DNA from: Chakrabartia godavariana | Lineage (GTDB): Bacteria > Pseudomonadota > Alphaproteobacteria > Sphingomonadales > Sphingomonadaceae | Length of the DNA: 64,000 nucleotides | Direction of reading: 5' to 3' | NCBI GenBank assembly: GCA_005518185.1 | Contig: RKSN01000004.1 | Location: 62,001 to 126,000 of the forward strand | Shown here: piece by piece, positions 4,163 to 52,208 of the stretch | Numbering within the stretch: the stretch's first letter is position 1 | How the letters are laid out: every line of letters starts with the position of its first letter | Notes under the pieces: model-generated | The model's database searches: none | The model's input: the letters and a program-made list of their open reading frames with translations, nothing else | Told to the model about the DNA's origin: nothing | Program-made: the position numbers and the translations under genes

Positions 4163-4164
4163 GA

Positions 4165-5334: not shown

Positions 5335-5337
5335 TTG

Positions 5338-6639
5338 TCATTCCCCCTGTGTGATCGGCGCGCGGGCGGTAAGCCGCTCAAGCTGCGCCTGGGCGATGTG
5401 GTAGGAGAGCAGCGCGTCGATCGCAGCCGCCCGTGTCTGGGCGAGCGTGCGTTCGGCATCGAGTAGATCGAGCTGGCCGAACTTGCCCTCGCGATAGCCG
5501 ATGCGGGCGATGCGGGCGGCTTCTTCGGCCGCCGCGAGCGCGGGTCCACTGGCCGCCGCCGCATTTGTGGCGGCGTTGGCGGCATCGGCTTGGGCGCGCG
5601 CAATGGCCTGGTCCACATCGAGTGCCGTGAGGCGTCGCCGCGCGTCCGCGCTCTGCCGTTCGGCGGTGGCTTGGCTCAACGCCGCCCGGCCGTTGTTGAA
5701 CATCGGGATCGGGATCGACAGGCTGAAAATCGCCGCCGTGTCATTGGTCTGTTCGAGCCGGCGCGCGCCGGCCCCAAGCGTCAGGTCGGGAACGCGCTGC
5801 GAGCGCGCGAGGCGCACGCCGGCGTCGGCGATAGCGAAGTCGGCATTGGCCGCCGCCATCATGAGCGTGCCCGTGCTGTCTATTGGCCGGAGGGGGCCAT
5901 AGGTCGCGGGCGCGCGGGAGAACCAGTCCGTGTCGAGCGGCCCCGCGATGGGTTGGCCGATAATTCGCGACAGGGTGAACCGCGCGACTTCGACAGCCCG
6001 TTCTTCCCGCGTTAGCGCAGCGTCGGCATTGACCCGTGCTACGTTCGCTCGCTCTGCCTCGATCGGCGACGCGCGGCCCGCCTGCACGCGGACCTGCGCG
6101 GCGCGCAGGGTTTCATTTGCGATACGGGCCTGATCGCGGGCGGTAATGAGCCGACGTTCCGCCGAGGCGGCCTCCGCGTAGGCGCGAATGACGTTCAGCC
6201 GGAGATCGGCTTGTGCGATCGTGGCCTGTATGGTGGCCCGGTCGGTTCGAGCGTCCGCGACGGCGATCCGAGCCGATCGCTTGCCGCCGAGTTCGATCGG
6301 CAGCGTAAGCGATGTGGTCGCTTCGAGGCTCTGCGTGCCACGGTACGGGCCGGAACCAGCGACATTTTCAGCTTCGACCATGACGCTTGGATTGGGCCGG
6401 AGCCCCGCGACGCGCCGTCCCGCTTCGGCAGCGCGAATGTCCGCCGTGGCGGCTTCGAGCGACGGCGAAACGACGCCGGCAAGTTCGAGAGCGCGATCGA
6501 CTGTGAAAGATGGGCCTATTAAGGCGGGCGACGTGCTTTGGGGCTGAGCGGCTCCGGTATCAACCGGCGACGCGGTTTGGGCCTGCGCGATGCTCGCGCA
6601 AGCGGTCGCGGCCAGCAAGGCCGCGAGCAATCGGTGCAT
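5338..6639 (-). CDS. czcC: CzcC-type outer-membrane efflux protein (TolC family)
   Basis: A 433-residue TolC-family outer-membrane channel for the CzcBA pump. A signal peptide (MHRLLAALLAATACASIAQA-Q) is followed by two repeats of the outer membrane efflux domain with long Ala/Arg/Glu-rich helices. The motif IPIPMFNNGRAALSQA, typical of CzcC, lies in the second half. AGGAG lies 10 nt before the ATG at 6639. It is the first gene of the three-gene pump operon. Its C-terminal 120 residues match the czcC remnant at 19506-19876, which shows two related systems in this window. Confidence 0.92.
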   Translation of the reverse strand: MHRLLAALLAATACASIAQAQTASPVDTGAAQPQSTSPALIGPSFTVDRALELAGVVSPSLEAATADIRAAEAGRRVAGLRPNPSVMVEAENVAGSGPYRGTQSLEATTSLTLPIELGGKRSARIAVADARTDRATIQATIAQADLRLNVIRAYAEAASAERRLITARDQARIANETLRAAQVRVQAGRASPIEAERANVARVNADAALTREERAVEVARFTLSRIIGQPIAGPLDTDWFSRAPATYGPLRPIDSTGTLMMAAANADFAIADAGVRLARSQRVPDLTLGAGARRLEQTNDTAAIFSLSIPIPMFNNGRAALSQATAERQSADARRRLTALDVDQAIARAQADAANAATNAAAASGPALAAAEEAARIARIGYREGKFGQLDLLDAERTLAQTRAAAIDALLSYHIAQAQLERLTARAPITQGE

Positions 6640-27734: not shown

Positions 27735-28118
27735 TCAACAGCAATCTGCACTACCCTTGCGCAATTTCGTGACTGTGCCTTGCTTGCCGTCCCAATCGAC
27801 TTCAAACGATACGTGATCTCCCACCTTAAATCCTTGGAGGACTTCCGGATTGGCGGAGAAGCCCATTTTCATTGCCGACCATTGTAGAGCCGGAATTTTC
27901 TTATGGTCGAGCGTGATTGTCCCTTTGGCGAGATCGACTGCGGTGATCGTTCCGGTGCTGGCACCGTGAACAACCGCATCTGCATCACCAGTGCTTTTTG
28001 GGGTACTCTTGCTGCTCGCTGGCGCAGTCGTGGCACTCGACGCCTCGGGTTGTTTGTTGCAAGCGGTTAGCGAGGCCAACAGTGCGAGACTGGAGGTGAT
28101 GATCAAGCCTGACTTCAT
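27735..28118 (-). CDS. cusF: CusF-type periplasmic copper chaperone (lipoprotein)
   Basis: A 127-residue protein with a lipobox (LASLTAC near residue 20), a low-complexity Ser/Thr/Ala linker and the CusF OB-fold core. Its ligand motif is [18 protein letters not shown], with the His, Trp and Met residues used for Cu(I)/Ag(I). The tail ends in two cysteines (SADCC). Its ATG overlaps the cusA stop as ATGA. It would deliver copper to the CusCBA pump. Confidence 0.9.
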
Positions 28119-31100
28119 AGTGCTTCTCCTTCGGGTTGATTGCGAAATTGGGAGCGTCGGCGCATCAGTAGGTAGGCCGCAGGGATGATCAGCATCGACA
28201 GGAGGGGCGCCGTCAGCATGCCGCCGACCATCGGTGCCGCGATCCGGCTCATCACTTCCGAACCTGCTCCGCCACCTGCCAGGACGGGGAGCAGGCCCGC
28301 GAGGATCACCGCGACTGTCATGGCTTTGGGCCGGACGCGCATCGCAGCGCCATCGCGGACCGCCGCCACTACGTCGTCATCGCTGCGCGCCTCCAGCGCG
28401 TGCTTGAGGTAAATCAGCATGACGACCCCGAACTCTGCCGCGACGCCCGCGAGCGCGATGAACCCCACAGCGGTCGCCACCGACTGGTTGTAGCCGAGCC
28501 AATAGAGCAACCACAGGCCGCCAGTGAGGGCAAAGGGCAAGGTGCCCATGATCAACAGTGCTTCATCCCAGCGCCGGAAAGTCAGGAACAAAAGCCCCAG
28601 AATGATCGCGAGCGTCACCGGGATCACCAGCTTCATCCGCTCTTTGGCGCGGACGAGAAACTCGTACTGACCAGTATAGGAAACGCTGACGCCGGGTGGC
28701 AACTTGACCTGCACAGCAATGGCGCGCTGGATATCGCCCACCATGGTCTGCATGTCGCTGCCCCGGCCATCGACGTAGATCCATGTCACCGGTCTGCCGT
28801 TCTCGCTGCGAAGCATGGGCGGCCCCTCGGTGATACCGATGCGGGCGACACTGCCGAGAGTGATTTGCTGGCCGGTAGGGGTCAGCACCGGCAGGCTTGC
28901 AAGCTTGTCCGGACTGTCGCGGATTTCGCGAGGGTAGCGGACCTGGATCGGGTAGCGCGCCAATCCTTCGACTGTCTGCCCAACCGTTTCGCCGCCAATC
29001 GCGCCCGACACAACCGACTGGACATCGGCCACATTGAGCCCGTAGCGGGCTGCGGCGGCGCGATCGACCGTGACGTCGATGTAGCGCCCTCCGGTCAGCC
29101 GCTCGGCCAGCGCCGAGGCGACACCCGGCACCGTCCGGACGACCTGCTCGATCTGCCTTGCAGTGCGATCGATCTCGGCGAGGTTCGAGCCGGCGACCTT
29201 GATCCCGACCGGGCTCTTGATCCCGGTCGCCAGCATGTCGATGCGGTTGCGGATCGGCGGGATCCAGAAGTTGGCGAGGCCCGGCACCTTGACCCGCGCA
29301 TCGAGCTCTTCGACCAACTTCTCGGGGGTCATGCCGGATCGCCATTGCTCTCGCGGCTTGAAGCGGATGGTCGTCTCGAACATCTCCAGCGGGGCAGGAT
29401 CGGTTGCGCTCTCGGCGCGTCCGGATTTACCGAAAACGCTCTGAACTTCAGGCACGGTCTTGATCAGCCGATCGGTCTGCTGAAGCAGCCGCCCGGCCTC
29501 TGTCGGCGAAATCCCCGGCAGCGCCGACGGCATGTAGAGCAAGTCGCCTTCGTTCATCTGCGGCAGGAACTCTCCGCCAATCCGCGACATCGGCCACAAG
29601 GTGGTCGCGAAGATCAGGGCTGCTATCATGAGCGTGCGCTTGGGGTGAACGAGCACCCAGTCGATCGCCGGGCGGTAAATCCGCGTGAGCCAGCGATTGA
29701 TCGGATTGGCCTCCTCGCTGGGTATGCGACCCCGGATCAGGAGCCCCATCAGCACCGGAATTAGCGTGATCGAGAGCAGCGCCGCAGCCGCCATGGCATA
29801 GGTCTTGGTAAAGGCGAGCGGCGAAAACAGCCGTCCTTCCTGTCCCTGAAGCGTGAAGATCGGCAGGAACGAGAAGGTAATGATCAAGAGGCTGAGAAAC
29901 AGCGCCGGGCCTACCTCGGCCGCAGCCTGCGTGACCAGGCGCCACCGCGTCGCCGTGTCCAGTTCGCTATCGGGATGCTCGTGCTGCCAGCGTTCAAGAT
30001 GCTTGTGCGCATTCTCGATCATCACGACCGCCCCATCTACCATCGCCCCAATGGCTATGGCGATGCCGCCGAGCGAGAGGATATTCGCGTTGAGGCCCTG
30101 CAACCGCATGACGATGAAGGCCATCAGGATGCCGAGCGGAAGCGTCAGGATCGCGACGAGCGCCGAGCGGGTGTGCCAGAGGAACAATGCGCAGACGAGC
30201 GCGACGATGACGAACTCTTCGAGGAGCTTGTGTCCGAGGTTCTCCACTGCCCGGTCGATCAACCCTGAGCGGTCGTAGGTCGGCACTATCTCGACGCCCG
30301 GCGGCAAGCTTCTTTTCAGTTCATCGAGCTTGGCCTTGACCCCGTCGATGACCGCGCGGGCGTTCTGGCCCTGGCGCATGACGATGACCCCGCCAGCCAC
30401 TTCGCCGTCCCCGTTCAATTCAGCAATGCCGCGGCGCATTTCCGGGCCAATCTGGACCGTCGCGACATCGCCCAGCGTCACAGGAACGCCTCCATCGGCG
30501 CGCAGCGGAACCGCACGGAAATCGTCGAGCGTCTTGAGATAGCCGCTGGCACGAACCGTATATTCGGCGCCGGCCATTTCCACGCTGGACCCGCCAGTCT
30601 CCTGATTGGCGCGCTTGAGCGCCTCGGTGACCTGTTCGGTGGTAACCGCATAAGCCGCCAGCTTCTGCGGATCGACGATCACCTGGTACTGCTTGACCAT
30701 GCCGCCGATGCTGGCGACCTCGGCCACCCCCGGCACAGTCTTCAACTCATAGCGCAGGAACCAATCCTGCAAGCTTCTGAGCTGGGCAAGGTCATGGCCG
30801 CCCGACCGGTCAACCAGCGCATATTCAAAGATCCAGCCCACCCCCGTGGCGTCGGGCCCCAGAGCGGGCTTGGCCCCCTCAGGCAGACGGCCTTGCACCT
30901 GGCTCAGATACTCAAGAACGCGGCTGCGCGCCCAATAAAGGTCGGTGCCGTCGTCAAACAGGACGTAGACAAAGCTGTCGCCGGTGAACGAATAGCCGCG
31001 CACGACGCGCGCACCGGGCACCGACAGCATGGTCGAGGCGATCGGGTAGGTAACCTGGTTTTCGACGATCTGCGGCGCCTGACCGGGATAGCTGGTGCGA

Positions 31101-31246
31101 ATGATGACCTGCACATCGGAGAGATCGGGCAAGGCATCGACCGGCGTCGTCCGGACCGCGTAAAAACCGAAAACACTCAGCACTGCTGCCACAACAAGCA
31201 CCAGATTGCGCGAGCGGACAGAGGCACGGATGATCGCAGCGATCAT
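28115..31246 (-). CDS. cusA: CusA-type Cu(I)/Ag(I) RND efflux pump
   Basis: A 1043-residue RND pump. All three methionines of the E. coli CusA metal site (573, 623, 672) are conserved one residue earlier: M572 in DLLYMP, M622 in LEMFET and M671 in IDMLATG. TM4 has [17 protein letters not shown] with D404 (E. coli D405). Length is normal. It overlaps cusB upstream and cusF downstream by 4 bp each. It exports Cu(I) and Ag(I) from periplasm and cytoplasm through CusBC. Confidence 0.96.
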
Positions 31247-32475
31247 CGCACATCTCCGATCGGCCGTGCCGGAATCCCGCTCAGGCTCGCTTCGGAATCA
31301 AGCAGGAACTGCCCCGAGGCCGCCACCTTCTCGCCTGGCGCAAGCCCGGCAAGGATTTCGGTCTTGCCGCCGTCCTCGCGGCCAAGCCGGACCTCCGCTG
31401 GCCGATAGCGTCCGTCGGCAAGGGCAAGAATGACGAGATTGCGCGCGCCGGTGCGGATGACCGCTTCGCTCGGCACCAGCAGTCCGGGGTGGCCTTCGTC
31501 GCCGAGCACCACGGTGGCGAACATGCCGGGGCGCAGCATGCCGCCGCGGTTGGCCAGCTCGATCCGCACCGTGATAGTCCGGCTATCTACCTGCGCTGTC
31601 GGCAGGATCGCAATCACGCGGCCCGCGAGGCTTTGACCGGGAAGCGCGGCCAGCGTCACCTTTGCGCGCTGCCCGACCCGGACAAGGCCCGCCTGCGCCT
31701 GCGGCACGGCGGCATTGACCCAGACCGTGCCGATCCCGTTGACCTGTGCAAGGGTCTGGCCTGCCACGAGCGTCACGCCCTGCCGTGCATCCAGCGTCTG
31801 GATGACCCCGCCGATTGGCGACGTGATGGTGAGGACACCGCTCGTTCTCCCGCTGCGCTCGACTTGCGCGATGAGCTGCTCGGGCATGCCCAGTAATCTC
31901 AGCCGCTGGCGTGCCGCCTCGGTAAGGTCGGGGCGGCCAAGGCGGCGGACCGCGAGATACTCGCCCTGCGCGCCGCCCCATTCGGGCAATTGCAGGTCCG
32001 CAATAGGCGCGCCCACACCGATCACGTCGCCCGGCGCCCTGCCATAGACACGGGTTACAAAACCGCCCGAGCGCGCCTGGATGATGGCGACATTGCGCTG
32101 GTTAAAGTCGATCGTGCCGGTGACCGTGACCGATGAAGGCAGTGTGCCAATCTCCGCCGTGACCACACGCAGGCCAAGGCTCTGCCGGACAGCCGGGTCG
32201 ATGCTGACCCCCGGGGCCGTGGCGGTTGCAGCCCCTTCGTCGGCATATTTTGGGATGGTTTTCATCCCCATCGACGACAGTGAATTGGGGTTGTCGTAGT
32301 GCTCGGCGGGTACCATCGGATCGTACCAGTAAAGGATCTTGCGCTCCGATCCGGCGCCCGTCACGGTACCGGGACTGCTGCTATGACCGAGCCAATACCC
32401 GCCCGCGCCTGCCGCCAGGGCGATCGCCAAGATGCCTGCGCCCCAACGCGCGGTCTGCTTCGCGTGCCAGTTCAT
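31243..32475 (-). CDS. cusB: CusB-type periplasmic adaptor
   Basis: A 410-residue adaptor with an N-terminal membrane anchor ([18 protein letters not shown]). The CusB copper-binding segment ILYWYDPM...[14 protein letters not shown] follows at about 47-80. Its three methionines correspond to the Met ligands of E. coli CusB. Barrel-sandwich, helical hairpin and beta-barrel domains follow. Both ends overlap neighbours by ATGA (cusC before, cusA after). Confidence 0.93.
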
Positions 32476-33704
32476 GGCCGCACCTCCATGTATGTGTAAT
32501 TGATCCGGACCGCGTCGCGCGCGACATCAGCTTCGCGGGCGAGTGCATCGACTTCAGCTTCGGCAAGAGCGAGGCTCGAGAGGAGCGCGCTGCCGAGATC
32601 GAGCTTGCCTGCGGCATAACTCGCCATATCCAGCTCGGCCCGCCGCTTGGCGAGCGGCACGAGTGTAGCCCTGGCGTTGTCGAGTTGCCGGCGATGCATG
32701 TCGTAATCGGCAAGATCGGACGTGAGCCCCGCATTCAGATCGCGTTCGCCCGAAGTGCGGCTGAACCGTGCCCGGTCCGCCTCGGCTTCGCGGGCTGCTA
32801 TCAGCGGATCTTGCCGTTTGCGCGAGAACAGCGGCAGATCGATACTGACGCCGACGGAAACCATGTCGCCATAGGCCGGATCGCGCCGGCCATAACTGGT
32901 GCTGACCCGCCAATCCGGCCGCTTTGCCGCGCGGGCAAGATCAGTCTCTGCCTCGGCGGCAGCGACATCGGCATCAAGAGCGGTCAGGCGCGGAGTTGCG
33001 CCAATACCGCCCCTCAGCCGTTCACGTTCGACCGTGAGCAAGGGCGGATCGCTGCTAACGTCAGCATCGGGATCGCCCGTCAGGCGCGCGAGCCGGGCTT
33101 GCGCCTTGGCCACCTCAGCCTCAAGCTGAGCTTGCCGGTCGTTAACCGCCGCGCGCAACTGCTCGGGTTCATAGGCCTGGCTTGGCCGGGCTGAACCCGA
33201 GGCAAGCCGCGCCGTAACCGTAGCCTGTAAGTCGCCAAGGCTCGCATCAAGGCGCCGCAACTGGGCAAGGCGACGTTTGGCATAGTAAAGATCGATCCAG
33301 GCAAGCGCCGTTTCCAGGCGGACGTCTTGCGCCGTGACCGCTTGTCCTGCTTCCGCCGCGCCGATCGCAGCCCGCGCGCGGGTTTGCTCCGCCCGCCGCT
33401 TGGCCGGGTTGGGGAATGCTTGTTCGATCCCGATCCGTGCGGTGGTCATGCTTTCATCACGCGGACGAAAGGCTGGCGGGCCCGAAATCGGAAAATTATC
33501 GATGCCAACGGACAAGGTGGGATCAGGAAGCTGGCCGGCAGCAATCGCACGAGCGTGCGATGCGCGGACGCTGGCCTCACTGACTTTGAGCGCAGGTGCT
33601 GCGTTCGCCGCTCGTTCGAGCGCGGCTTCGAAAGTCAGTGGTTCCGCACCTGCCGCGCAAGGCAGCGCAGTGGCCAAGGCCGGTGCTAGGAATAGTATAC
33701 GCAT
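32472..33704 (-). CDS. cusC: CusC-type outer-membrane efflux protein (TolC family)
   Basis: A 410-residue TolC-family channel with a signal peptide (MRILFLAPALATALPCAAGA-E). Two helical repeats follow, with motifs such as LPDPTLSVGIDNFP and GVSIDLPLFSRKRQDP. It is the first gene of the cusCBAF operon, where each junction is a 4-bp ATGA overlap. A GGAAG element lies about 7 nt before the ATG. Two hairpins lie 60-135 bp upstream. Confidence 0.88.
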   Translation of the reverse strand: MRILFLAPALATALPCAAGAEPLTFEAALERAANAAPALKVSEASVRASHARAIAAGQLPDPTLSVGIDNFPISGPPAFRPRDESMTTARIGIEQAFPNPAKRRAEQTRARAAIGAAEAGQAVTAQDVRLETALAWIDLYYAKRRLAQLRRLDASLGDLQATVTARLASGSARPSQAYEPEQLRAAVNDRQAQLEAEVAKAQARLARLTGDPDADVSSDPPLLTVERERLRGGIGATPRLTALDADVAAAEAETDLARAAKRPDWRVSTSYGRRDPAYGDMVSVGVSIDLPLFSRKRQDPLIAAREAEADRARFSRTSGERDLNAGLTSDLADYDMHRRQLDNARATLVPLAKRRAELDMASYAAGKLDLGSALLSSLALAEAEVDALAREADVARDAVRINYTYMEVRP

Positions 33705-39879: not shown

Positions 39880-40575
39880 TCAATGTACCTTGACCATACC
39901 GACGCCCTTGATGTTATTGAACGAGTCCGTCTGGTGACAACTGAAGCACTGATCAACGCGCGCGCGTTTCTCCCCGCTGATCATTTTGTCCATCATTTCA
40001 AAGTGCATCATATAATGGCTCGGCGGTGCCTTGTGGCATTGCGAGCATTCGGTTGATTTCGGGCTGGGATGCAAGAAGCCGCTGATCTTCCAGCTTTCCG
40101 TTGTGTGGCAGCTTGCGCACTCGGGTCCGAAGAATCCCTTATGGATATCCCGAGGCGCGTGGCAGGACTGGCAGTCGAGTTTTGCAACTTGTCCCGTAGT
40201 ACGCTTCGCAATCGCCTCGAGGACCTGGTGATCCATCCTGACAGGACGAATAGTGCGGCCCTGATGCTCGATGTGGCAACCCGTGCACTCCTTCAGGTTA
40301 GCGTGGAAGGCGGTCGCTGGTTTCATCAGGAGTTCAGGCGCAAAGGCGTGGCATGCGATACAGGTTGCGGCCTTGATGCCCTGGTTGGGAGTATGGCAGC
40401 TCTCGCATTTGCCTTCAAGAAACGCGTGGGCGCTCGATAGGGGCCCGGGACGGACTGCTGATGACCATTGAGGCAGCGCCGTGCTTCCCGATCGGTAGAC
40501 GGTGAAAGGGATGGCGGCGGCGGCGAGCAGCGCGATCGTCGCAAGCACCAGGTAAAGGATTGTGGTTCGCTTCAC
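39880..40575 (-). CDS. seven-heme c-type cytochrome, membrane-anchored, periplasmic
   Basis: A 231-residue protein with an N-terminal hydrophobic anchor (TTILYLVLATIALLAAAAIP). Seven CxxCH heme sites follow: CESCH, CIACH, CTGCH, CQSCH, CASCH, CSQCH, CFSCH. The spacing resembles class III / cytochrome c7-type electron carriers. The start is the GTG at 40575, which overlaps the stop of the preceding gene as GTGA, so the two are coupled. It is the last gene of a four-gene operon and should receive electrons from the membrane cytochrome b encoded next to it. The terminal acceptor is not evident. Confidence 0.88.
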   Translation of the reverse strand: MKRTTILYLVLATIALLAAAAIPFTVYRSGSTALPQWSSAVRPGPLSSAHAFLEGKCESCHTPNQGIKAATCIACHAFAPELLMKPATAFHANLKECTGCHIEHQGRTIRPVRMDHQVLEAIAKRTTGQVAKLDCQSCHAPRDIHKGFFGPECASCHTTESWKISGFLHPSPKSTECSQCHKAPPSHYMMHFEMMDKMISGEKRARVDQCFSCHQTDSFNNIKGVGMVKVH

Positions 40576-41255
40576 GGCAGCCACCGAAGGCCGTAATAGT
40601 AGCCGCCCCAAATGTGCAATGCCATCAGGCCATACATCACAATCGCAACCGCGACATGGAACACAGTCCACCGCGCGAGGGTGCGCTTGATCGCATCCCG
40701 TGCCATTATTGTAAATTCGAGATCTGAAATGGCCCCGAGCAGATGATCGAGCCTCAGTCCTGACGGATCGACGACGCTATCGCGGGTCCAGACTACGGAA
40801 ACTGTGGCCAACCCATCGTAGCGGTCGCGAAGCAGCTTGAGCTCTTTTTGCTGAATCCGGAGATCCTGGCTGACCTGCGCAAGATAATATCGCCCGATGA
40901 ATCCGCTCGCGACGACCGCGAGCATCGATATCACAAGGCTCACACCGAGCGGACTCTGAAACTTGTGGCCGGAGTGAATGATGCCGAGCAATGCCCCGAT
41001 TGCGCCGGCGTAGACGTGAAACCCCATTAGCGCCCCAAGCGAGATGGAGCCTTTGGTCCGCTCCTTGATCCAGGCCTGCCGCTTCACCGCCGTGTAGGAC
41101 AGCAGGAGCAGGAACAGAAGCGCGGCGGCGATCCCGAACATGCTCCCGGCAAGGCTGCCCGGGAAGCGGGGCGCGGAATGGATAAGAAATCCGGGGACGA
41201 TCAGCGTTAGCACACTGACCAGGCCTCCGACCGTGATTTTTTCGGTTTCGGTCAT
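40572..41255 (-). CDS. diheme b-type membrane cytochrome, ferric-reductase-like
   Basis: A 227-residue membrane protein with about five to six hydrophobic segments. Two helices carry histidine pairs with exactly 13 residues between them, H80-x13-H94 and H200-x13-H214. This is the bis-histidine pattern of two stacked hemes in ferric reductases and NADPH oxidases. A charged loop (about 125-190) lies between the halves. It takes the middle place between a flavin/[2Fe-2S] protein and a periplasmic multiheme cytochrome, so it probably carries electrons across the membrane. It shares one base with the upstream stop. Confidence 0.78.
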   Translation of the reverse strand: MTETEKITVGGLVSVLTLIVPGFLIHSAPRFPGSLAGSMFGIAAALLFLLLLSYTAVKRQAWIKERTKGSISLGALMGFHVYAGAIGALLGIIHSGHKFQSPLGVSLVISMLAVVASGFIGRYYLAQVSQDLRIQQKELKLLRDRYDGLATVSVVWTRDSVVDPSGLRLDHLLGAISDLEFTIMARDAIKRTLARWTVFHVAVAIVMYGLMALHIWGGYYYGLRWLP

Positions 41256-43246
41256 CAGGCCTCCACCACCAGGTCACCCGTCGATTTTGCCTGACAGGCG
41301 AGGATGATTCCCGCTGCCTTCTCATCCGCGGCGAGCGCGTCCTCGACCTCCATGGTTGCCTGACCCTGGCGGAGTGGCACTTTGCACCGACCGCAGGTGC
41401 CAGCTCGGCAATCATAATCAATCGCTACGCCAATCGCCTCGGCGGCTTCGAGCACCGACTGGTCCGGCGCGAGGGGGCCTGCCTTGCCGGACTTTGAGAA
41501 TGTGATGGTGGCGTGTGCAGACGGGATCGGCACGGCCTGATCAGCGGTGAATGCCGGTGTCGCAACAGGTTCCGAGGGTTCGGCTTCCATGACTGGGCCA
41601 CCCTTGGGCGGAGCGAACTCTTCGGTTTTAACCTGGTCTGATGGGACTTGGAGCTGCGCGAGCGCTTCTTTCACTGCAGCCATCATGGGGGGTGGGCCGC
41701 ACAAGTGGACTCGTCGTTTCGCAATGTCGGGTACCGAGGCCGCTATGAAATCTGCCGTCATGTAGCCCACCTGGCCTTGCCAATCGGTGCCTTCGGCTTT
41801 GGCGACGGTATACGCGACGTGAAGCTTGGGATGGCGACGTGCCAGATGATCGCACTCATCGCGGAAAATGAGATCTTCTGGTGTATTCACGCCGTAAAGT
41901 AGAAAAATGTCGTGCTCGTAGGACCGGTCTGTGAGACTTCGCAGAACGCTCATCATTGGCGTGATGCCAACGCCGCCGGCGATCAGAACGATGCCGTCGG
42001 CTTCCTTCCCCGTGAAGAAGAACCTGCCGGCGGGGGCAGATATTTCAAGGAGATCGCCGGTATCGGCATGATCGTGAAGATGACGCGACTCCAGGCCATA
42101 TTGTTCACGCTTGATCGTGAGTTCGATATAGTCGCGCTGGGTGGGGGATGATGAGATCGTGTAGGATCGACGGACTTTCTGTCCGTCGATTTCCGAAGTG
42201 ATTGTTGCGTATTGCCCCGGCAGGAAAGTGAACGGGATGGGACCGCCGTTCGCCTCCATTAAGCGGAACGTTTTCACGTTCGGCGTTTCGTCGAAGATCG
42301 CCTTGATCCGCAGCACCCCCTTCCAAGGGCGTTGAGCGGGCGGCGGAGCATTAGTCTCGGCAGACAACTGTGGCATGCCTGCGAGAACAGCGGGCTGTGC
42401 CATCGCTGTGGGTGCAGCCGGAGCGCCAATTGCAGTTTGTGCTGTGGGCGACCCTGGCATCAGTCGCTCGACAAGGCTCGCGATGCGACGAAGCCGAGCC
42501 TGCCGCAAGAGCAGGGCGGCAAGGAGTGCCGCCGCGAGCAGTACCATTCCAATGATGTGCCACCAGGAAAGGCCGCTATCCGTCGCCATTTGTTCAGCTC
42601 CGCCTATTCCATTTTGGTTCTTGAACCATGTGAGAGCGATCTCGCGGGGTGCCTTGCCTTCCTCCAGTCCCTTGAGGGCGCTCACGCCGCTGTCGGCTTG
42701 GGCAAGGCCTTCGCGAGCCCCCTTGATGGCGTCACCGGCAGCTACGAAGTCGTTGGACGCAAGCGCGTGATGGAGTCGGGATTGCTCGGCAGTCAGCACT
42801 TCGGTCCCCGAGCCGAGGCGCTTTAGCGCTTCGGCTCGAACGGCCCGCCGCGCTTCGTCGGTCAGCGCTGGCCATTGCATCAGCGAGGGGTAGAAGGGTT
42901 TGGCACCCATTGGCCCGCAACAGCCGGAGGGCGCGGCTGTGCCACCCATACCTCCCGGCCCGGCAGATCCGGCCGACGGTGACATCATCTGCTTCATCAT
43001 GGCGGCCATTGGGTCAGTGCCCGAGCCTCCCATGGGTTGTGTTGCAGGCATGTCGGTGCCGCTGGCTGCGGCAGGCATGGCTGGAGCTGCCCCGCCTCCG
43101 CCTGGATGATGCGAAGCGTGCTCGTCAGCGGTTTGCGCCACGACCGACGGTGATGTGAGCATCACCGTCAGTGCGATCAGAACCCGGTAGCCAATCCGAC
43201 TCCAGAGAGTTCGGTGAGTAGTGATTTGATGGAGCGGACGCTTCAT
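41255..43246 (-). CDS. FNR-like flavin reductase with [2Fe-2S] ferredoxin domain and periplasmic metal-binding N-terminus
   Basis: A 663-residue chimera. A signal peptide ends near VVAQ (residue 38). A Met/Gly-rich periplasmic part with SGCCGPMG and an alpha-helical stretch (about 115-210) recalls CpxP-like heavy-metal-resistance proteins. A TM helix lies at about 227-247. The cytoplasmic half has an FNR module: FAD-binding RRSYTISSSP, NAD(P)-binding GGVGITPMMSVL and LCGPPPMM. The C-terminus is a plant-type ferredoxin with C613, C618, C621 and C651. It should oxidise NAD(P)H and feed the b-type cytochrome encoded next. The domain combination is unusual. Confidence 0.82.
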   Translation of the reverse strand: MKRPLHQITTHRTLWSRIGYRVLIALTVMLTSPSVVAQTADEHASHHPGGGGAAPAMPAAASGTDMPATQPMGGSGTDPMAAMMKQMMSPSAGSAGPGGMGGTAAPSGCCGPMGAKPFYPSLMQWPALTDEARRAVRAEALKRLGSGTEVLTAEQSRLHHALASNDFVAAGDAIKGAREGLAQADSGVSALKGLEEGKAPREIALTWFKNQNGIGGAEQMATDSGLSWWHIIGMVLLAAALLAALLLRQARLRRIASLVERLMPGSPTAQTAIGAPAAPTAMAQPAVLAGMPQLSAETNAPPPAQRPWKGVLRIKAIFDETPNVKTFRLMEANGGPIPFTFLPGQYATITSEIDGQKVRRSYTISSSPTQRDYIELTIKREQYGLESRHLHDHADTGDLLEISAPAGRFFFTGKEADGIVLIAGGVGITPMMSVLRSLTDRSYEHDIFLLYGVNTPEDLIFRDECDHLARRHPKLHVAYTVAKAEGTDWQGQVGYMTADFIAASVPDIAKRRVHLCGPPPMMAAVKEALAQLQVPSDQVKTEEFAPPKGGPVMEAEPSEPVATPAFTADQAVPIPSAHATITFSKSGKAGPLAPDQSVLEAAEAIGVAIDYDCRAGTCGRCKVPLRQGQATMEVEDALAADEKAAGIILACQAKSTGDLVVEA

Positions 43247-43256
43247 GCTGATAATC

Positions 43257-43631
43257 TTACATATCGTCCTGCATGGGCATTGGCTTGTCGGCGGGCATCG
43301 GTGCAGGCTTTGCGGCGGCCGGCTTGGCGTGCCTGCGATGTCTGGGGCTGTGCTTCGACCTTCCCATAGTTTTCATCTTCTTGGCGCAGCATCCTGACTT
43401 GTCCTGTGCCATAACGGGTTTAGGCATTTGCATGCCGCCTTGCATGCCGGGCATCGCGTCATGACCTTCCATCATCCCACCGGACGGCATTGCACTGCCG
43501 TTGGGAGACATGGGGGGCTGGGTTGAGGCCTGTCCTGTTCCTTGGCTCTGGGCCGCAGCAAGGCTGGGAGACAGAAGAACGCCGCCTATCAATGCCAGCG
43601 AATAAAGATAGGAAGTGCGACTTTTCATCAT
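43257..43631 (-). CDS. secreted Met-rich protein with CC motif
   Basis: A 124-residue protein with a signal peptide (YLYSLALIGGVLLSPSLAAA-Q). The Met/Gly/Pro-rich mature part (GGMMEGHDAMPGMQGGMQM) is followed by SGCCAKKMK and a basic His/Lys/Pro tail. Met-rich periplasmic proteins commonly bind Cu(I). GGAGG lies 7 nt before the first of two ATGs. It is the first gene of the electron-transfer operon, 10 bp before the reductase, and carries a TACGTA motif 85 bp upstream. Confidence 0.7.
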   Translation of the reverse strand: MMKSRTSYLYSLALIGGVLLSPSLAAAQSQGTGQASTQPPMSPNGSAMPSGGMMEGHDAMPGMQGGMQMPKPVMAQDKSGCCAKKMKTMGRSKHSPRHRRHAKPAAAKPAPMPADKPMPMQDDM

Positions 43632-43828: not shown

Positions 43829-44197
43829 TCAGTCATCGCGGTGGACTCCTGTTGCCCTTTGCCAAGGCCAACGGCCCTTAATCTCAACTTCAAGAGAGAA
43901 GCTCAGAAATGTCCTTATAAGCACAATGCCCGCAAGAACGGCCAAACTGTTCAGCGTTGGCTGAATAGCTATGGTATTGATTATGTCCGCTGCAACCAGG
44001 AATTCGAGACCCAAGAGGATGGCTTCCCCCAGATTTGAGCGGAAACTTCCAACAGAACCTTCATCGGTCAAGCCCTTTGCCGCTGTCAGTAGGAATCTGA
44101 GAAGCGAGTAACCCGCACCGACGACAATGATCGCCGTACCCGTGATTTCTATCGCACGCGTGATCCAGTGGATAGCCTCGATGAGAATGCTGTCCAT
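43829..44197 (-). CDS. DUF1622 membrane protein
   Basis: A 122-residue protein with three hydrophobic segments: an N-terminal helix ending IVVGAGYSLLRFL, then LGEAILLGLEFLVAADIINTI and SLAVLAGIVLIRTFLSFSLEVEI. The last two are the DUF1622 signature. Function is unknown. ATG 44197 follows a G-rich tract that may act as the ribosome binding site; a TTG just upstream is not needed. It stands alone between the electron-transfer operon and a doubtful secreted-protein gene. Confidence 0.8.
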   Translation of the reverse strand: MDSILIEAIHWITRAIEITGTAIIVVGAGYSLLRFLLTAAKGLTDEGSVGSFRSNLGEAILLGLEFLVAADIINTIAIQPTLNSLAVLAGIVLIRTFLSFSLEVEIKGRWPWQRATGVHRDD

Positions 44198-44305
44198 CAA
44201 ACTACCCCCCCGTTACCACCGGCATTGCCGGGCCATTTAGGTTATAACTTTCCGTCTAGGAACGAGTTTTTCTTCTGAAATCGAGATATAATGCTCATGC
44301 AGGGA

Positions 44306-45987: not shown

Positions 45988-46803
45988 TCACCTTACGACC
46001 TTGGCCAAGATGAACGAGTCGATGGCATGGGCAACGCCATCCTTTTCGTTCGAAAGGGTCACTAGGCTTGCGGCCGTGCGGACGGCAGCCGGTGCTTGCC
46101 CCATCGCGATCGACAGGCCGGCACGCGCAAACATCGGCATATCGTTGCGTTGGTCACCGATTACAGCGACGTCGTCGAGCGGCACTCCAGCTGCACCAGC
46201 CAATGCAGAAAGGCCATCGCCCTTGTTGGCACCGGGCGCCGTGATGTCGAGATAGTAGGGTTGGGAACGGCCGACCGTTGCCGCCGCGCCAAGTGCGGAT
46301 GAAATTTCTTTGTCGAGGCGGGCCAGAAGCTCGCGGTCGCCGCTGACTCCAACGATCTTGTCAACCCGTGCCAGCAATCCGTTAAAATGGCTCCGGAGCA
46401 CTGGTTCAATGTTGGCGGCATGCCGTTCAAGAGGGACGTAGACCTCGTCGATCGTTTGGGCAAACCAATGGCCGTCGGCGAACAACCACAGGGTGACCGC
46501 TGGGTGGTCCAATAAGGCAATCGCCCGCGCCGCACAGTTTGGCTCGATATGCTCAGCCAATACTATCTTTCCGTCGGGGCGCATGACTGTTCCTCCGTTG
46601 AATGCGCCCATGACATCGGAGATTTGCAGCCTTTTCGCGATCCACAACATGCCGCTTGGGGGACGGGCGCTGATCAGGCTCATTGCAAGACCAGCGTTCC
46701 GGACCCGTTCGACTGCGGCGATCACGCCGTCCGACAGGCTTTTGTCATCGCGGACCAGCGTACCGTCGATGTCACACACAAGGAGGCGTATGCGCCCGCT
46801 CAT
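45988..46803 (-). CDS. HAD-IIB sugar phosphatase (Cof-type)
   Basis: A 271-residue phosphatase with LLVCDIDGTLV at the N-terminus, SLISARPP motif II, Lys in GANKGDGL and GDQRNDMPMF motif IV. This is the Cof subfamily layout, with a cap domain between. ATG 46803 overlaps the zwf stop as ATGA; a longer frame would read into zwf and is rejected. Members dephosphorylate sugar phosphates; the substrate is unknown. Co-translation with zwf points to hexose-phosphate metabolism. Confidence 0.83.
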   Translation of the reverse strand: MSGRIRLLVCDIDGTLVRDDKSLSDGVIAAVERVRNAGLAMSLISARPPSGMLWIAKRLQISDVMGAFNGGTVMRPDGKIVLAEHIEPNCAARAIALLDHPAVTLWLFADGHWFAQTIDEVYVPLERHAANIEPVLRSHFNGLLARVDKIVGVSGDRELLARLDKEISSALGAAATVGRSQPYYLDITAPGANKGDGLSALAGAAGVPLDDVAVIGDQRNDMPMFARAGLSIAMGQAPAAVRTAASLVTLSNEKDGVAHAIDSFILAKVVR

Positions 46804-48230
46804 CCCAGACGGTGCCAGCGCCGGTGCGCGCGATGCATCAGCGCGTCGGCGCTTTCGGGGCCGGCGCTGCCTGCAGGATATTCCTCGGGCGAACCCTGCT
46901 GCCACATTTCGAGCAGCGGTTGCACCGCGCGCCATCCGGCTTCGATCTGGTCGGCCCGCTGGAAAAGCGTCTGGTCGCCAGTCAGCACATCATAGAGCAG
47001 TGTCTCGTAGCCAGTCTGATGTTGGAGCTCAAAATGGTCTGCATAGCTGAAATCCATGCTGACCGGCGCCGTGTTCACTGCGGGGCCTGGCTGTTTGACC
47101 ACGAATTCGAGGCTGATTGCCTCGTCAGGCTGGATTTGGATGACGAGCCGGTTAGGCGGGAGCCGGTCGACCACCGTCTCCCTGAAAAGAGAGAGCGGTA
47201 CATCCCGAAACTGGATCACGATCTCGGTATCGCGCGCCGCCAGCGCCTTGCCCGTGCGCAGGTAGAAAGGGACCCCCGTCCAACGCCAGGTTTCGACGTG
47301 TACCTTCATTGCGACGAATGTCTCGGTTCGACTGAGTGGATCGACAGCGGGCTCCGTGAGGTAGGCAGAAACTGGTTCGCCCGCGACCGCGCCGGTGCCA
47401 TATCGGCCGCGAATGGCCTCCTGGGGGTCGATCGGGCAAATAGCACAGATGACCTTCGCTTTCTCGGTGCGGATCGCCGCAGCATCGAAACTTACCGGCG
47501 GCTCCATGCCGATCATGGCGAGAAGCTGAAACAGATGGTTGGGCACCATGTCACGCAGCGCGCCGGTGGCATCGTAGAACTTGCCACGGCTGCCGATGGT
47601 TACGGCTTCTGCGGCCGTGATCTGGACGTGATCGATGTAACGGTTGTTCCAGACAGATTCGAGCAAGGTGTTGCCGAAGCGCGCTACCATGATGTTCTGG
47701 ACCGTTTCCTTGCCGAGGAAATGGTCGATCCGGTAGATCTGGTCCTCTTTGGCGCGGGCAAGGACCTGGCGGTTGAGCGCCTGTGCGGTAGTGAGATCGG
47801 TGCCAAACGGCTTTTCGATTACCACCCGCCGAAAGCCCCGGGATTCGTCGAGCAGACCCGCATCACCTAAAGCATCGACGATGGGGCCGAAAAAGCCTGG
47901 ACCAGTGGCGAGGTAGAAAACAGTGTTCCCCTTGAGCTCGCCCGCCAACGACGTGAACGTTTTTGAATCACGGAAGTCGCCCTTCCGGTAATGGACGTGG
48001 CTCCGGATGTTCTCCCAACTGGGCCTCTCTTTCAGGAAGTCATCGAGAGCGCGACGCAGCCCGTCGTCATCACAGTCATGATGACTAATGCCAAGCAGCT
48101 CGGTCTCAGGCGCCAGAAGCCCGGCTTCCGCGAGATTGACGAGCGCCGGGAAAAGCAGTCGACGTGTGAGATCACCCAACGCGCCGAAGATGACGAACGT
48201 CGCTGCCGGGGAGACCGGAGCCTTATTCAT
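46800..48230 (-). CDS. zwf: glucose-6-phosphate 1-dehydrogenase
   Basis: A 476-residue enzyme making 6-phosphogluconolactone and NAD(P)H from glucose 6-phosphate. The nucleotide-binding site [12 protein letters not shown] is at the N-terminus. EKPFGTDL follows, then the substrate signature RIDHFLGKE near 165-173. Length is normal. It overlaps gnd upstream and the HAD gene downstream by 4 bp each, in the order tal-pgi, gnd, zwf. No lactonase gene is present in the cluster. Confidence 0.96.
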
Positions 48231-49213
48231 TGCGGCATTTCGACGTGCCCGCCGAACCCGAATCGCATCGCCGATAGCACCTGGTCGCCGAAAGTATGGT
48301 CGACCCGGCTGCGATAGCGGGCGAACAGCGCAGCGGACAGGACGTAGACGGGGACAGACTCCTCCATTGCCGCCTCGATCGTCCAGTGACCCTCTCCCGA
48401 GTCGGCGACTCGTCCGGAAAATTGGCTGAGCATCTGGTCATTCGCCAGCGCATCGGCAGTCAGATCGAGCAGCCAAGAGGAGATGACGCTGCCACGCCGC
48501 CACACTTCGGCTATGTCGGTCAGATTGAGGTCGAAGCGCTCATCCTCCGGCAGCTTGTCCGACTTTTTGCTCTTGAGAATATCGAAACCCTCAGCGTAAG
48601 CCTGCATCAGCCCGTACTCGATGCCATTATGGATCATCTTGACGAAGTGGCCTGCACCTGCCGGCCCTGCGTGGATGTATCCCTGCTCGGCGCGCGGATC
48701 TTCGCCCTCTTGCTCCATACGGTTGGCGGTACGCGGGATCGTTCCGAGCCCCGGCGCCAGCGCTGCGAAGATCGGGTCAAGCAGATCGACTATCGCCTTG
48801 TCCCCGCCGACCATCATGCAATAGCCGCGCTCCAGTCCCCAGACCCCGCCGGATGTGCCGACGTCCACATAATGGATGTTCATCTCTCGCAGGGAACGTG
48901 CCCGTCGGATGTCATCCTTGTAAAAACTGTTGCCGCCATCGATGATTATGTCGCCCGGCCTGGCGAGGCCCTTGAGCGTCTCAATCGTGTCCTCGGTAGG
49001 CGAGCCGGCGGGGAGCATCACCCAAAAGATGCGTGGTGATGTCAGCGCGTTGGCGGCGGCTTCCAACGACGAGGCCGCGATCGCACCCTCTGCGGCAAGG
49101 TCTTCGACGAGGGGGGGATTGCGGTCGAAGGCCACGACTTCATGTTCGCGGCGCATCAGTCGGCGCGCGATATTGGAGCCCATCCGCCCCAGACCAATGA
49201 TTGCAATTCGCAT
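48227..49213 (-). CDS. gnd: 6-phosphogluconate dehydrogenase (decarboxylating), short form
   Basis: A 328-residue enzyme of the short, often NAD-linked GndA type (the long form has about 470 residues). It has [45 protein letters not shown] and the catalytic [16 protein letters not shown]. It makes ribulose 5-phosphate and CO2. It starts 4 bp after the tal-pgi stop and overlaps zwf. Confidence 0.94.
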
Positions 49214-49217
49214 AGAG

Positions 49218-52037
49218 TTAGGTTCCCTGATGGTCGCGTGCGGCAGCGACCACCGCTGCGCGCAACGCTTCGATGCCGCCGCCGTCCCCCTTTAAGTTGA
49301 CACGCAGTACATGCCGACCGCGCGAGGCCAGAACGGCCATGTCACCGCGGGCCTGTGCAAGCTGGATCGTCCCGAAGCTCGCTTTGTGACCGGGGATGGC
49401 TAGATCGGCATCGGAATCGCGCGTGATGACCAAGAATGAGCCGCTCGCCGGGCCGCCTTTATAGACCTGCCCGGTCGAGTGGAGGTAGCGGGGTCCAAAC
49501 CCGGCAACGGTCGCCACGGTGTTGGCATCGCGGAGCGCTTGGCGCATTGTCGTGACAGCCTTTTCATTGGCCTCGTTCCGCTCGATGTAGGCGAGAAGTC
49601 CCGCATATGTACCATGTGTTAGGCTAGCGAAGTGCAGTCGTAGCAACGCGACTGGATCGGCAGAGCGCGGGCCGTCATCATCCGAGGCATACACGGAAAA
49701 GTCGGCATTTTCTGCGATCGGTTTTTCCTGCCCGAGAGCGCCCGTCGCCTCGAACGAGTCGACCAGTGCGCGCGTCGCGATCTTGGCGTCCTCGACATCG
49801 GGTTGGTCGAACGGGTTGATGCCGATTACCGCACCGGCGATCGCGGTCGCGACCTCCCACCGGAAGAATTCCTGACCAATCAGGTCACGGCTAGCGACGT
49901 GGATCGTAACTAGCGGCTGGCCGGCGGCCACGAGTGCCTCGAGCTTCAATTCAAGTGCGTCGTCGTCGTCGCCCTGCAGGTGCAAATGGACGAACATCCG
50001 ATCGTTCGCATAGCTTTCCGGTGAGCCGACGGGCTCCAGGTCGACGGGAACAACACCCTTTCCCTGCTTGCCTGTGGATTCGGCTATGAGCTGTTCCAGC
50101 CAGGCACCGAACGGCTCCAACCCCTTCGACGGCAGGATGGTAAGCTTGTCCCGCCCGGCCAATGCCGCCTCGCCGATAATCGCCCCAAGGCGCATGCCGG
50201 GGTTGTGTGTGGGAGGCACATCGGCACCGCATGCAGATATCATCGCCGCGGTCGCCGCATAGATGGCGCTTGTGTCGAGCCCCATTACGGCCGCGGGCAC
50301 CATACCGAATGCCGATAGCACGGAGTAGCGCCCGCCAATGGCCGGGTCGCCGGCGACGATCATCGTGAAACCGTCCCGCTTGGCAGAAGCCTCAAGCTTT
50401 GAACCTGGATCAGTGACCGCGATAAAATGGTTGCCATCCTTGCCCGACAGTTCCCAGAAATAGGCGCGCAACAACTCTGGCTCCATGGTCGAGCCCGATT
50501 TGGATGAGACGATGAACAGGGTGTTTGCTGGATTTATCTCGGCCGCCACTGCCGCAATCTGGTCTGGATCCGTGGTGTCGAGCACGTGGAAGCGTGGATG
50601 GGTTTGGCGGCTGCCCAGGATCAGCGATAGCACTTCCGGACCGAGGCTCGACCCACCCATGCCGAGCAGGACCGCGTCCTTATAGCCTCTGGCCTTTGTG
50701 GTTAGTGACTTCAGCGCATCGCCATCGACCTGCTGACCCCGAGCCGCCGCGAGCCAACCGAGCCAGTTGGCTTCCCCCCGGTCGGTCCACAGCGTCGCAT
50801 CATGCTGCCACAGACGGCGCACCCAGCCGTCCACACGCGCCGACTCCAAACGGGCCTCGACCGCCTGTCGGAGCCCCTCGGGAAGGGTGACTTCCATTCC
50901 GTTCTGGCGGTCGCCCAGATATGCCTCGCGCTTGGCCGCGACGCCGCCAAGCAGCGCGTCGGCGGCGTCTGCGAACAGTCTCACGCCTTCTTCGACGAGG
51001 CCGGTGGTGACAACGTCCAACGCCAGGCCGAGCCGTCGCGCCTCTGCGAGGACGTGACGGGCATCGTCAAGCTGCTGGGTCAGGGTCAGTTGAATGGTGC
51101 CGTGGTCGCGGAAGGCATCCATCGTCTTGGGCGGTATCGTGGTGATCGTGTCCGGGCCGATCAGCGCGTCGACATAAAGCGTGTCCGGGTAGGCGGGATC
51201 CTTGGCCCCGGTTGAAGCCCACAGCAGTCGCTGCGGCATTGCGCCTTTTGCAGCGAGGGCTTGCCAGCGAGCGCTGGCAATCATGTCCTCGTACCAAACG
51301 TAAGCCAACTTGGCGTTGGCGATCGCAACTTTTCCTCGGATGGCGAGCAACGCGTCGCTCTCGGCATCGCCGGCTTTCACCCGTTCGTCGATTGCCTTGT
51401 CAATTTGCGCATCGATGCGGCTAACAAAGAAACTGGCGACGCTCGCCACCCTGTCAATCGGTTCGCCAGCCTCTGCCCGTGCCTCGAGTCCATCCAGATA
51501 AGCTTCGGCAACCAACTGATAAGCTTTGAGCGAGAAAAGCAAGGTCACGTTGATATTGAGCCCATCCCTGATCAACGGAGCGATCGCGCGGACGCCGGCT
51601 TTTGTGCCGGGCACCTTCACCATCAGGTTGGGCTCATTCACAGCTGCCCACAGGCGCCTTGCTTCCGCAACCGTGACATCGGTGTCGTTCGCGACATAAG
51701 GCGAAATCTCGAGGCTGACGTAGCCGTCTTTGCCGTCGAGTAGGTCATATACTTCGCGCAGATCGGTCGCGGCCGCCTTGATGTCCGCGATAGCCTGGCT
51801 TTCGTAAATATCCTGAACACTTGCATCGGCATTACCAAGGATCGACTGAAATCCGGCCTCATAGGTATCGCCGTGGCCCATCGCCTTCTCGAAGATAGAC
51901 GGATTGGAGGTGACGCCAGTTAGGCCGTCCTCGCCGACAAGCTTGCGCAGCCCGCCGTCTGCGAGGAACTTGCGGTCAACGAAATCGAGCCATACTGCCT
52001 GGCCCATTCCGCGAAGCTCGTTCAAGCGGCTGGTCAT
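49218..52037 (-). CDS. bifunctional transaldolase / glucose-6-phosphate isomerase
   Basis: A 939-residue fusion. The N-terminal about 370 residues are a transaldolase with GVTSNPSIF and the Schiff-base lysine in [10 protein letters not shown] (K141). The C-terminal part is phosphoglucose isomerase, with [14 protein letters not shown] near 510 and a [12 protein letters not shown] motif. The start is ATG 52037 after AGGAG; the longer frame adds 36 poor residues. Together the two activities return pentose-phosphate products to glucose 6-phosphate for Zwf. First gene of the tal-pgi-gnd-zwf-HAD operon. Confidence 0.93.
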
Positions 52038-52208
52038 CTGTAGCTCCTCTCGATCAGACGCCCCGAATGGCGCTCTTATTATTGAGAATGACGCATGATA
52101 TCTCACTAAGCTGAGCGTATTGGCTAAGGCTCTGAGGCTACCCAACGTGATCGGGCTGACGTTCCGGCCGACACAAAGACCCAGGACACTTGGCCCAGCT
52201 TCTCAGTT

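Follow-up and report, generated by a model that had tools for sequence, protein, structure and literature searches.

Where do electrons go in an operon that combines a flavin reductase, a putative membrane cytochrome and a multiheme cytochrome? The operon occupies positions 39880-43631 of a 64,000-nucleotide stretch of Chakrabartia godavariana DNA (contig RKSN01000004.1), here called the window, which sits on a 182,679-bp contig (C4) within a 3.17-Mb genome. In our labels, L numbers are loci compared, G numbers are genomes, and C plus a number in a contig label is a contig. The four genes, here A to D, all lie on the minus strand and are transcribed in the order A, B, C, D; A and B are 10 bp apart, B and C overlap in TGATG, and C and D overlap in GTGA. 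Positions, overlaps, spacing and domain set had been put forward in an original prediction and were confirmed in the sequence (Table 1). The gene set, its conservation, its cofactor motifs, its co-occurrence and its neighbours are read directly from DNA. We consider it fairly probable that B, C and D (the triad) form a transmembrane conduit from NAD(P)H to the periplasm, with a metal as the probable acceptor in copper-resistance islands. The conduit architecture by itself is highly probable, and the metal as acceptor in the copper-linked copies is a possible but tentative assignment.

A conserved core of reductase, membrane protein and multiheme cytochrome

Genes C and D, searched separately in 72,556 plasmids, matched an identical set of 52 records, and in 50 of these the two matches lay no more than 300 bp apart. 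The exceptions are Legionella anisa, with matches 399 bp apart and C matched over 55%, and Gluconobacter, in which C was matched over 44% and the two best matches (C and D) lie far apart in the record. Among 31 loci tallied, near-copies included, B was present in all and D in 30, the one without D being that of Gluconobacter (L101). Conserved co-occurrence, which the original prediction had named as its check, is therefore borne out. The distances among B, among C and among D proteins correlate over 25 loci (Pearson 0.90-0.93; Spearman 0.58-0.73), and the Pearson values were reached in 0 of 2000 permutations; this comparison used the last 380 residues of B and left out L024-L027, the second triad of L033 and any locus for which one of the sequences was missing. 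The proposed four-gene unit thus holds for B-C-D as its conserved core, whereas A is variable and stands outside it.

Gene B joins an exported part to a reductase through a single transmembrane (TM) helix. NAD_binding_1, FAD_binding_6 and Fer2 all score above the Pfam cut-off and, with their conserved motifs, place B in the Hcr/BenC superfamily; its best PDB match is benzoate dioxygenase reductase (1krh). The motif residues for flavin adenine dinucleotide (FAD) and NAD, the four iron-sulfur cysteines and H230 are invariant in 18 of 18 aligned B proteins. In 16 of 16 B proteins inspected, 3 to 6 lysines or arginines occur in the 20 residues after the TM helix versus 0 to 2 in the 15 before it, so the reductase domains are predicted to be cytoplasmic, as originally proposed. 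Shortly after the signal segment, HxxHH is present in 25 of 25 full-length B proteins (0.08 expected from shuffles; 27 loci were tried, and some of the 25 are near-identical), and we regard it as a candidate metal site common to B proteins. The Acetobacter B (L037) is shorter and has no HxxHH in its open reading frame (ORF), and L032 yielded no B ORF.

Six histidines of C (H26, H80, H94, H97, H200 and H214) are invariant in 23 of 23 aligned proteins. Four of them form two H-x13-H pairs on two TM helices, a trait of the ferric reductase (FRD) family; H-x12-13-H spacing is also found in other b cytochromes. H26 and H97 are predicted to lie near the periplasmic face. Window C reaches the cut-off of no Pfam or NCBIfam family, has no PF01794 match in Pfam, and matches DUF4405 (PF14358) below threshold (19.8 bits versus 26.7). 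At E<=0.01, Pfam returned DUF4405 for six of the 23 aligned proteins (best E=9.1e-5), PF01292 for one, PF01794 for one, and three unrelated families for one or two members each; NCBIfam returned four unrelated families, one member each.

Profile comparison with hhalign gave C a probability of 0.8% against 12 PF01794 proteins (3 of 15 were left out as misframed or partial), 26.5% against 14 PF01292 proteins, over 31 columns of the last helix, and 10% against five DUF4405 proteins; the positive control, PF01292 against DUF4405, gave 99.1%. Membership of C in the ferric reductases (PF01794), the cytochromes b561 (PF01292) or DUF4405 was considered and set aside, as the profile comparison with its positive control did not support it. 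The NOX or ferric-reductase kinship suggested earlier is not supported, one of the 23 members touching PF01794 (E=0.0016); a remote kinship with the PF01292 fold may exist. No significant hit came from a profile search of the PDB with C; two cytochrome b chains appeared at E=0.97 and E=8.5, which do not count as evidence.

Gene D is best started at GTG 40575, inside the GTGA overlap (the mechanical ORF start is 40671), and encodes a protein with one N-terminal TM anchor. All seven CxxCH motifs are invariant in 21 of 21 aligned proteins, and nine further histidines invariant in this alignment are possible distal ligands. The repeated CxxCH motifs and the Pfam matches above cut-off, Paired_CXXCH_1 (30.8 bits; cut-off 20.6), Cytochrom_c3_2 (29.9; 25) and C7 (25.7; 24.8), place D among the c3/c7-type multiheme c cytochromes. 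Its score against the MtrC/MtrF domain model is 23.8 bits, below the 30-bit cut-off, and no porin or decaheme was found among the window proteins scanned, a scan that did not take in every window gene. The structure model of D (pLDDT, predicted local distance difference test, 36.3) was useless.

The order of cofactor motifs along B, C and D traces a route by which electrons would leave NAD(P)H and reach the periplasm. We infer this route, and we also infer heme binding, complex formation, the direction of electron flow and the acceptor. The three proteins would act as one membrane complex that exports electrons. In the cytoplasmic half of B, electrons would pass from NAD(P)H to FAD and on to [2Fe-2S]; they would traverse the membrane via two b hemes of C, at H80/H200 near the cytoplasm and H94/H214 near the periplasm, and then enter the seven c hemes of D. 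Outward flow would be aided by the membrane potential, so that D could be more reducing than NADH alone allows. In copper islands, the window included, the acceptor would most likely be metal on the HxxHH/Met-rich tail of B and on A, probably Cu(II) or another soft metal, and its reduced form would go to Cus or CopAB. In Alteromonas and Glaciecola the acceptor or donor would probably be the co-encoded periplasmic hydrogenase.

Distribution of the triad on plasmids

The 52 plasmid records span Alpha-, Beta- and Gammaproteobacteria and Bacteroidota. Hosts include Sphingobium, Rhizorhabdus, Bradyrhizobium, Acetobacter, Methylocystis, Roseomonas, Variovorax, Legionella, Methylophaga and Alteromonas and, in Bacteroidota, Spirosoma and Pontibacter. 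The nearest copies of C, 98-99% identical, are in four Novosphingobium records, and copies on other Sphingobium and Novosphingobium plasmids are only 38-40% identical. Among 98 genomes of relatives, C. godavariana included, G029 alone gave a further strong C match (42%). At E<=1e-30, strong C matches were found in two further genomes of 385 in the class and five further of 398 in the phylum, both samples including the genome under study. D matched at E<=1e-10 in 4 of the 385 class genomes: C. godavariana, the two further genomes that match C strongly, and G109, which holds a divergent FNR-C-octaheme triad (L078). This triad of FNR/Fer2, C-like and 8-heme genes (L078, 5706-9046) adjoins a VIT-family metal transporter gene.

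A tree of C places the Legionella copy within the alphaproteobacterial branch that holds the window (seven rows; Shimodaira-Hasegawa-like approximate likelihood ratio test [SH-aLRT] 97), and the two Bacteroidota copies group with Methylocystis and G642 (SH-aLRT 93); support values are SH-aLRT, with no bootstrap, and the deeper forks are weak. The host spread, these placements and the 38-40% identical copies in related genera fit plasmid-borne transfer of the triad between bacteria. A viral or phage origin found no match in viral contigs or phages. Damaged copies occur in Roseomonas (L032; B and D split) and in L024 (B split). On the BTAi1 plasmid (L033, 1056-3264), a second, incomplete triad with a shortened B and intact-looking C and D lies beside an IS3 transposase. 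On a Methylophaga plasmid (L096, 8166-20753), a cytochrome c maturation (ccm) set comes after the triad and a DUF1622 gene, separated from them by a gap. A promoter and terminator scan did no better than on shuffled sequence.

Copper genes, hydrogenases and other candidate partners

Neighbouring genes were tallied at the 31 loci, within 10 kb and at phmmer E<=1e-8. A copper-type gene or RND pump was found at 20 loci, or 17 if RND pumps are not counted. The neighbours tallied include CopB (11 loci), CopA (10), MerR (10), a Cu-type ATPase (8), a CusA-like protein (6) and a four-helix Cu protein (6). The window itself has a CusF-RND-TolC set whose end is 6 kb from the operon. At other places the contig also carries two CopA/CopB pairs, matches to Cu-type P-ATPases, a DUF411 protein and another RND pump. 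As background, 2926 of the 72,556 plasmids have a CopA match at E<=1e-50; we give no enrichment ratio for CopA because this base rate and the tally differ in cut-off. The copper-type neighbours and the HxxHH motif sustain the metal or copper link that had been drawn from the N-terminal parts. Among 16 B proteins inspected, the CC motif was found only in the window, L028-L031 and L039.

Gene A would be a further metal ligand of the proposed conduit. It has 17 methionines, a CC motif at C81-C82 and the C-terminal end PMPMQDDM, and it has no Pfam or NCBIfam match. Of 14 loci inspected, 8 (the window, L029, L030, L034, L035, L038, L098 and L099) encode, upstream of B, a Met-rich protein whose C-terminus is a similar Met/Asp stretch. 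The Met-rich proteins in this position are small and are secreted or lipoproteins, with Met/Asp-rich ends such as PMKDM and PMKDDM. The conservation of A rests on position and composition in these 8 of 14 loci, because tblastn with A, low-complexity filter on, matched nothing in the plasmids.

Several observations weigh against a metal-reducing conduit. No copper-type marker or RND pump lies within 10 kb in 11 of the 31 loci (L024-L029, L036, L089, L091, L095 and L097); L024-L027 nearly duplicate the window locus and have at most 8 kb of flank, in L089 a CopA gene lies on the contig at a distance of about 15 kb, and in L029 a TolC/RND set lies at about 12 kb. Matches to RND pumps and P-ATPases at the threshold of the tally are not necessarily copper-specific. 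The structure model of C is weak (pLDDT 61.8), and a fold search with it returned nothing at E<=0.001. Hydrogenase-linked copies of the triad retain HxxHH although no copper marker lies within 10 kb of them; the tail may therefore act in sensing or assembly, and metal reduction need not be the sole output of the triad. Finally, periplasmic Cu(II) reduction can raise copper toxicity, and any copper reductase would therefore have to be paired with a trap or pump for Cu(I). For a protective Cu(II) reductase there is a precedent in Escherichia coli RclA, a different protein (PMC7527725, available in part).

Another explanation for the copper neighbours could be that they are merely co-located on resistance plasmids and that silver, tellurite, selenite or gold is the natural acceptor. 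Several metal systems do lie on the islands, and D weakly resembles the tellurite/selenite protein ExtO (E=0.0015; 17.4 bits versus a cut-off of 200), probably through its heme motifs only. The recurrence of CopA, CopB, the Cu-type ATPase and the four-helix Cu protein as neighbours argues for copper, and we consider another natural acceptor improbable. Elsewhere in the window, an FTR1-type permease fused to a cytochrome c domain (9453-11417, minus strand) adjoins a cation-efflux gene and lies near a MerR regulator.

Genes for dehydrogenases and other enzymes also recur near the triad: aldehyde dehydrogenase in 7 of the 31 loci, Gnd in 6, AdhP in 6, glucose-6-phosphate dehydrogenase (G6PDH) in 5 (the window locus and its near-copies, L024-L027), and a hydrogenase small subunit in 4. 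In the window, zwf, gnd and tal-pgi lie upstream of the operon on the same strand. The transaldolase there is fused to phosphoglucose isomerase (49218-52145, minus strand), making with G6PDH and Gnd a pentose-phosphate block on a plasmid-sized contig. The triad could accordingly be read as a reductive relief valve that oxidises stress NAD(P)H from the island sugar and alcohol dehydrogenases with oxygen or a diffusible acceptor, much as an NADPH oxidase does. We think this decidedly improbable: it leaves the metal tail, the Met-rich A and the heptaheme chain unexplained, and at least 24 of the 31 loci lack any given one of these dehydrogenases within 10 kb. A different frequent partner is DUF1622, which 19 of the 31 loci encode no farther than 10 kb from C; its gene overlaps the end of D in L034, L098, L099 and L100.

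Table 1. Features of the operon and its surroundings in the window
Feature	Position	Strand	Remarks
Gene A, secreted Met-rich protein	43257..43631	-	124 aa, hydrophobic signal segment
Gene B: signal peptide, exported part, one TM helix, FAD/NAD(P)/[2Fe-2S] reductase	41255..43246	-	663 aa
B residues 43-47, HASHH, metal-site candidate near predicted mature N-terminus	43106..43120	-	HxxHH conservation
B TM helix, residues 229-247	42506..42562	-	H230 invariant, at predicted periplasmic end
B FAD- and NAD(P)-binding domains, about residues 312-546	41609..42313	-	Pfam/NCBIfam, alignment
B plant-type [2Fe-2S] domain, C-terminal	41285..41470	-	C613, C618, C621 and C651 invariant
Gene C, five-TM membrane protein, putative di-heme b cytochrome	40572..41255	-	227 aa
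C H80-x13-H94, third TM helix	40974..41018	-	invariant 23/23
C H200-x13-H214, fifth TM helix	40614..40658	-	invariant 23/23
Gene D, membrane-anchored periplasmic heptaheme c-type cytochrome	39880..40575	-	231 aa, seven CxxCH
CusF-type copper-binding protein, RND pump, adaptor (unscanned), TolC family	27735..33704	-	Cus-like efflux by inference
DUF1622 small membrane protein, frequent partner	43829..44200	-	Pfam PF07784
G6PDH, 6-phosphogluconate dehydrogenase, transaldolase-PGI fusion (NAD(P)H-forming genes)	46800..52145	-	family scans

The hydrogenase-linked copies point to another partner. In Alteromonas pAM1A3 and Glaciecola pGLAAG01, a multi-TM gene begins 12 bp after D and is followed on the same strand by [NiFe]-hydrogenase maturation and structural genes; these two loci (L095 and L097) were examined out of nine Alteromonadales plasmid records with C. 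The hydrogenase small subunit bears the twin-arginine translocation motif RRTFLK. Neither of the two loci has a cytochrome-b561-type match, and C is the sole match to the C profile there. MerR, cupredoxin and RND-type genes lie further along pAM1A3. The BTAi1 plasmid has a hydrogenase cluster 9-10 kb from its triad, and L088 has a hydrogenase small-subunit fragment.

The HynSL cluster of Alteromonas macleodii has the order orf1/cyt/orf2/hynD/hupH/hynS/hynL/hyp, in the available part of its description (PMC3102683), and its run from orf1 to hynS parallels C/D/1224-bp gene/HyaD/HupH/small subunit of L095. Because the gene order matches, we infer that orf1 is C and cyt is D. With orf1 and cyt so taken, the triad is a natural candidate electron partner of the HynSL hydrogenase, possibly exchanging electrons with NAD(H). 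Orf1 and Cyt were dispensable for maximal HynSL activity in E. coli, as assayed with methyl viologen (PMC3102683, same part). Gene B and the wider C family are not described in the available portions of the two HynSL papers (PMC3102683, PMC3701524).

These copies raise the alternative that the triad is a general-purpose conduit, carrying NAD(P)H electrons to or from the periplasm for whichever redox enzyme lies nearby, with a regulatory metal tail. Its partners would be the [NiFe]-hydrogenase in Alteromonas and the multicopper oxidase CopA in copper islands. Such a role would suit the hydrogenase genes directly downstream in L095 and L097, the BTAi1 cluster and the L088 fragment, the 10 of 31 loci with CopA within 10 kb, and the more than one cytoplasmic module that the C superfamily accompanies (see below). 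It is harder to square with HxxHH, which is kept in every full-length B whatever the neighbour, and with the 21 of 31 loci in which CopA was not found within 10 kb. We judge this role somewhat unlikely and continue to prefer an electron-exporting conduit with a metal as probable acceptor in the copper islands.

A wider superfamily and its relation to known conduits

Weak relatives join C in one superfamily (hhalign 99.7%). At least two H-x13-H pairs are present in 29 of 29 distant members tested, namely those of 47 distant loci with E between 1e-10 and 1e-5, L062 left out. An ORF with at least four CxxCH motifs lies in the flanks (about 1.5 kb) of all 47 distant C loci, a count that covers loci with sequence fetched and leaves outside seven further weak phylum hits without a locus. 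As controls, such an ORF was found at 0 of 45 loci of three other membrane-cytochrome families and in 17 of 103 plasmid-locus tiles and 1 of 18 window tiles, the triads' own D included.

A B-like reductase was detected at 7 of the 47 distant loci, and an ORF with CxxCxxC at 22; in L042 this ORF and the multiheme one are identical, and in L005 it is short. In L080, L083, L086 and L087, a large protein with two CxxCxxC motifs and a 10-CxxCH cytochrome stand beside the C-like frame; the CxxCxxC protein of L080 was identified as Pyr_redox/cNMP-binding/4Fe-4S. We propose that these four loci represent a second conduit type with another cytoplasmic donor, its protein type being identified in L080. 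Elsewhere, a distant C homolog (L079, G003:C1:889000-902000, 1607-5883) adjoins two ORFs with 21 and 31 CxxCH, and ORFs with 19-24 CxxCH similarly lie beside C-like genes in L081, L082 and L084.

We put forward, as a serious but unsettled possibility, that C founds an unrecognised di-heme cytochrome superfamily that wires varied cytoplasmic donors to periplasmic multihemes without quinone. The proposed donors are the FNR/[2Fe-2S] protein (B) or the Pyr_redox/cNMP/4Fe-4S protein. The seven-heme plasmid branch would then be an NAD(P)H:metal (copper) oxidoreductase assisted by the membrane potential; it would have crossed phyla as a single cassette and also have become coupled to hydrogenase. If so, copper-resistance islands hold an active electron-export machine, which would alter the picture of periplasmic copper redox control; genes annotated as hypothetical protein, iron reductase and cytochrome c3 would gain a function; and the Alteromonas HynSL hydrogenase, studied for hydrogen production, would gain a candidate electron partner. 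The C superfamily also offers a sequence handle for spotting quinone-independent routes from NAD(P)H to multiheme cytochromes. Among the matches listed from openly licensed PMC papers, none describes the whole B-C-D module or the C superfamily.

The cytoplasmic half of B resembles Hcr/GbcB-type NADH oxidoreductases (NF058606, 231 bits; PRK10684, 201 bits), but its scores fall far under both equivalog cut-offs (500 and 383), and B differs in being membrane-anchored with an exported, putatively metal-binding part. CymA/NrfH and Cbc are inner-membrane conduits. D is like the CymA/NrfH-type conduits and the c3/c7 cytochromes in its seven CxxCH motifs, its c3, C7 and paired-CXXCH Pfam matches and its one TM anchor. 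Its match to NrfH is weak (E=0.0047) and far below cut-off (17 of 134 bits), that to the membrane-bound tetraheme type in PDB 2a3m is also weak (E=0.0007), and Pfam gives no NapC/NirT match in D. The predicted donor is different as well, NAD(P)H in place of quinol.

In the NADPH oxidase/ferric reductase family, electrons pass from cytoplasmic NAD(P)H and FAD through two stacked b hemes, with H-x13-H pairs on two helices, and exit on the far side. B-C-D shares this predicted course, from NAD(P)H and FAD over two putative b hemes to the far side, when compared with NOX and ferric reductases, MsrQ included. It differs in that C has no clear kinship to the PF01794 proteins of relatives, which we take to be MsrQ, in that the flavin resides in a protein of its own, of Hcr/BenC type and with [2Fe-2S], and in that a heptaheme c cytochrome comes after C. 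Both kinds of system, transmembrane NAD(P)H reductases and multiheme conduits, are already known; the triad would work like NOX and ferric reductases, yet it would make the membrane step with parts that have no detected kinship to them.

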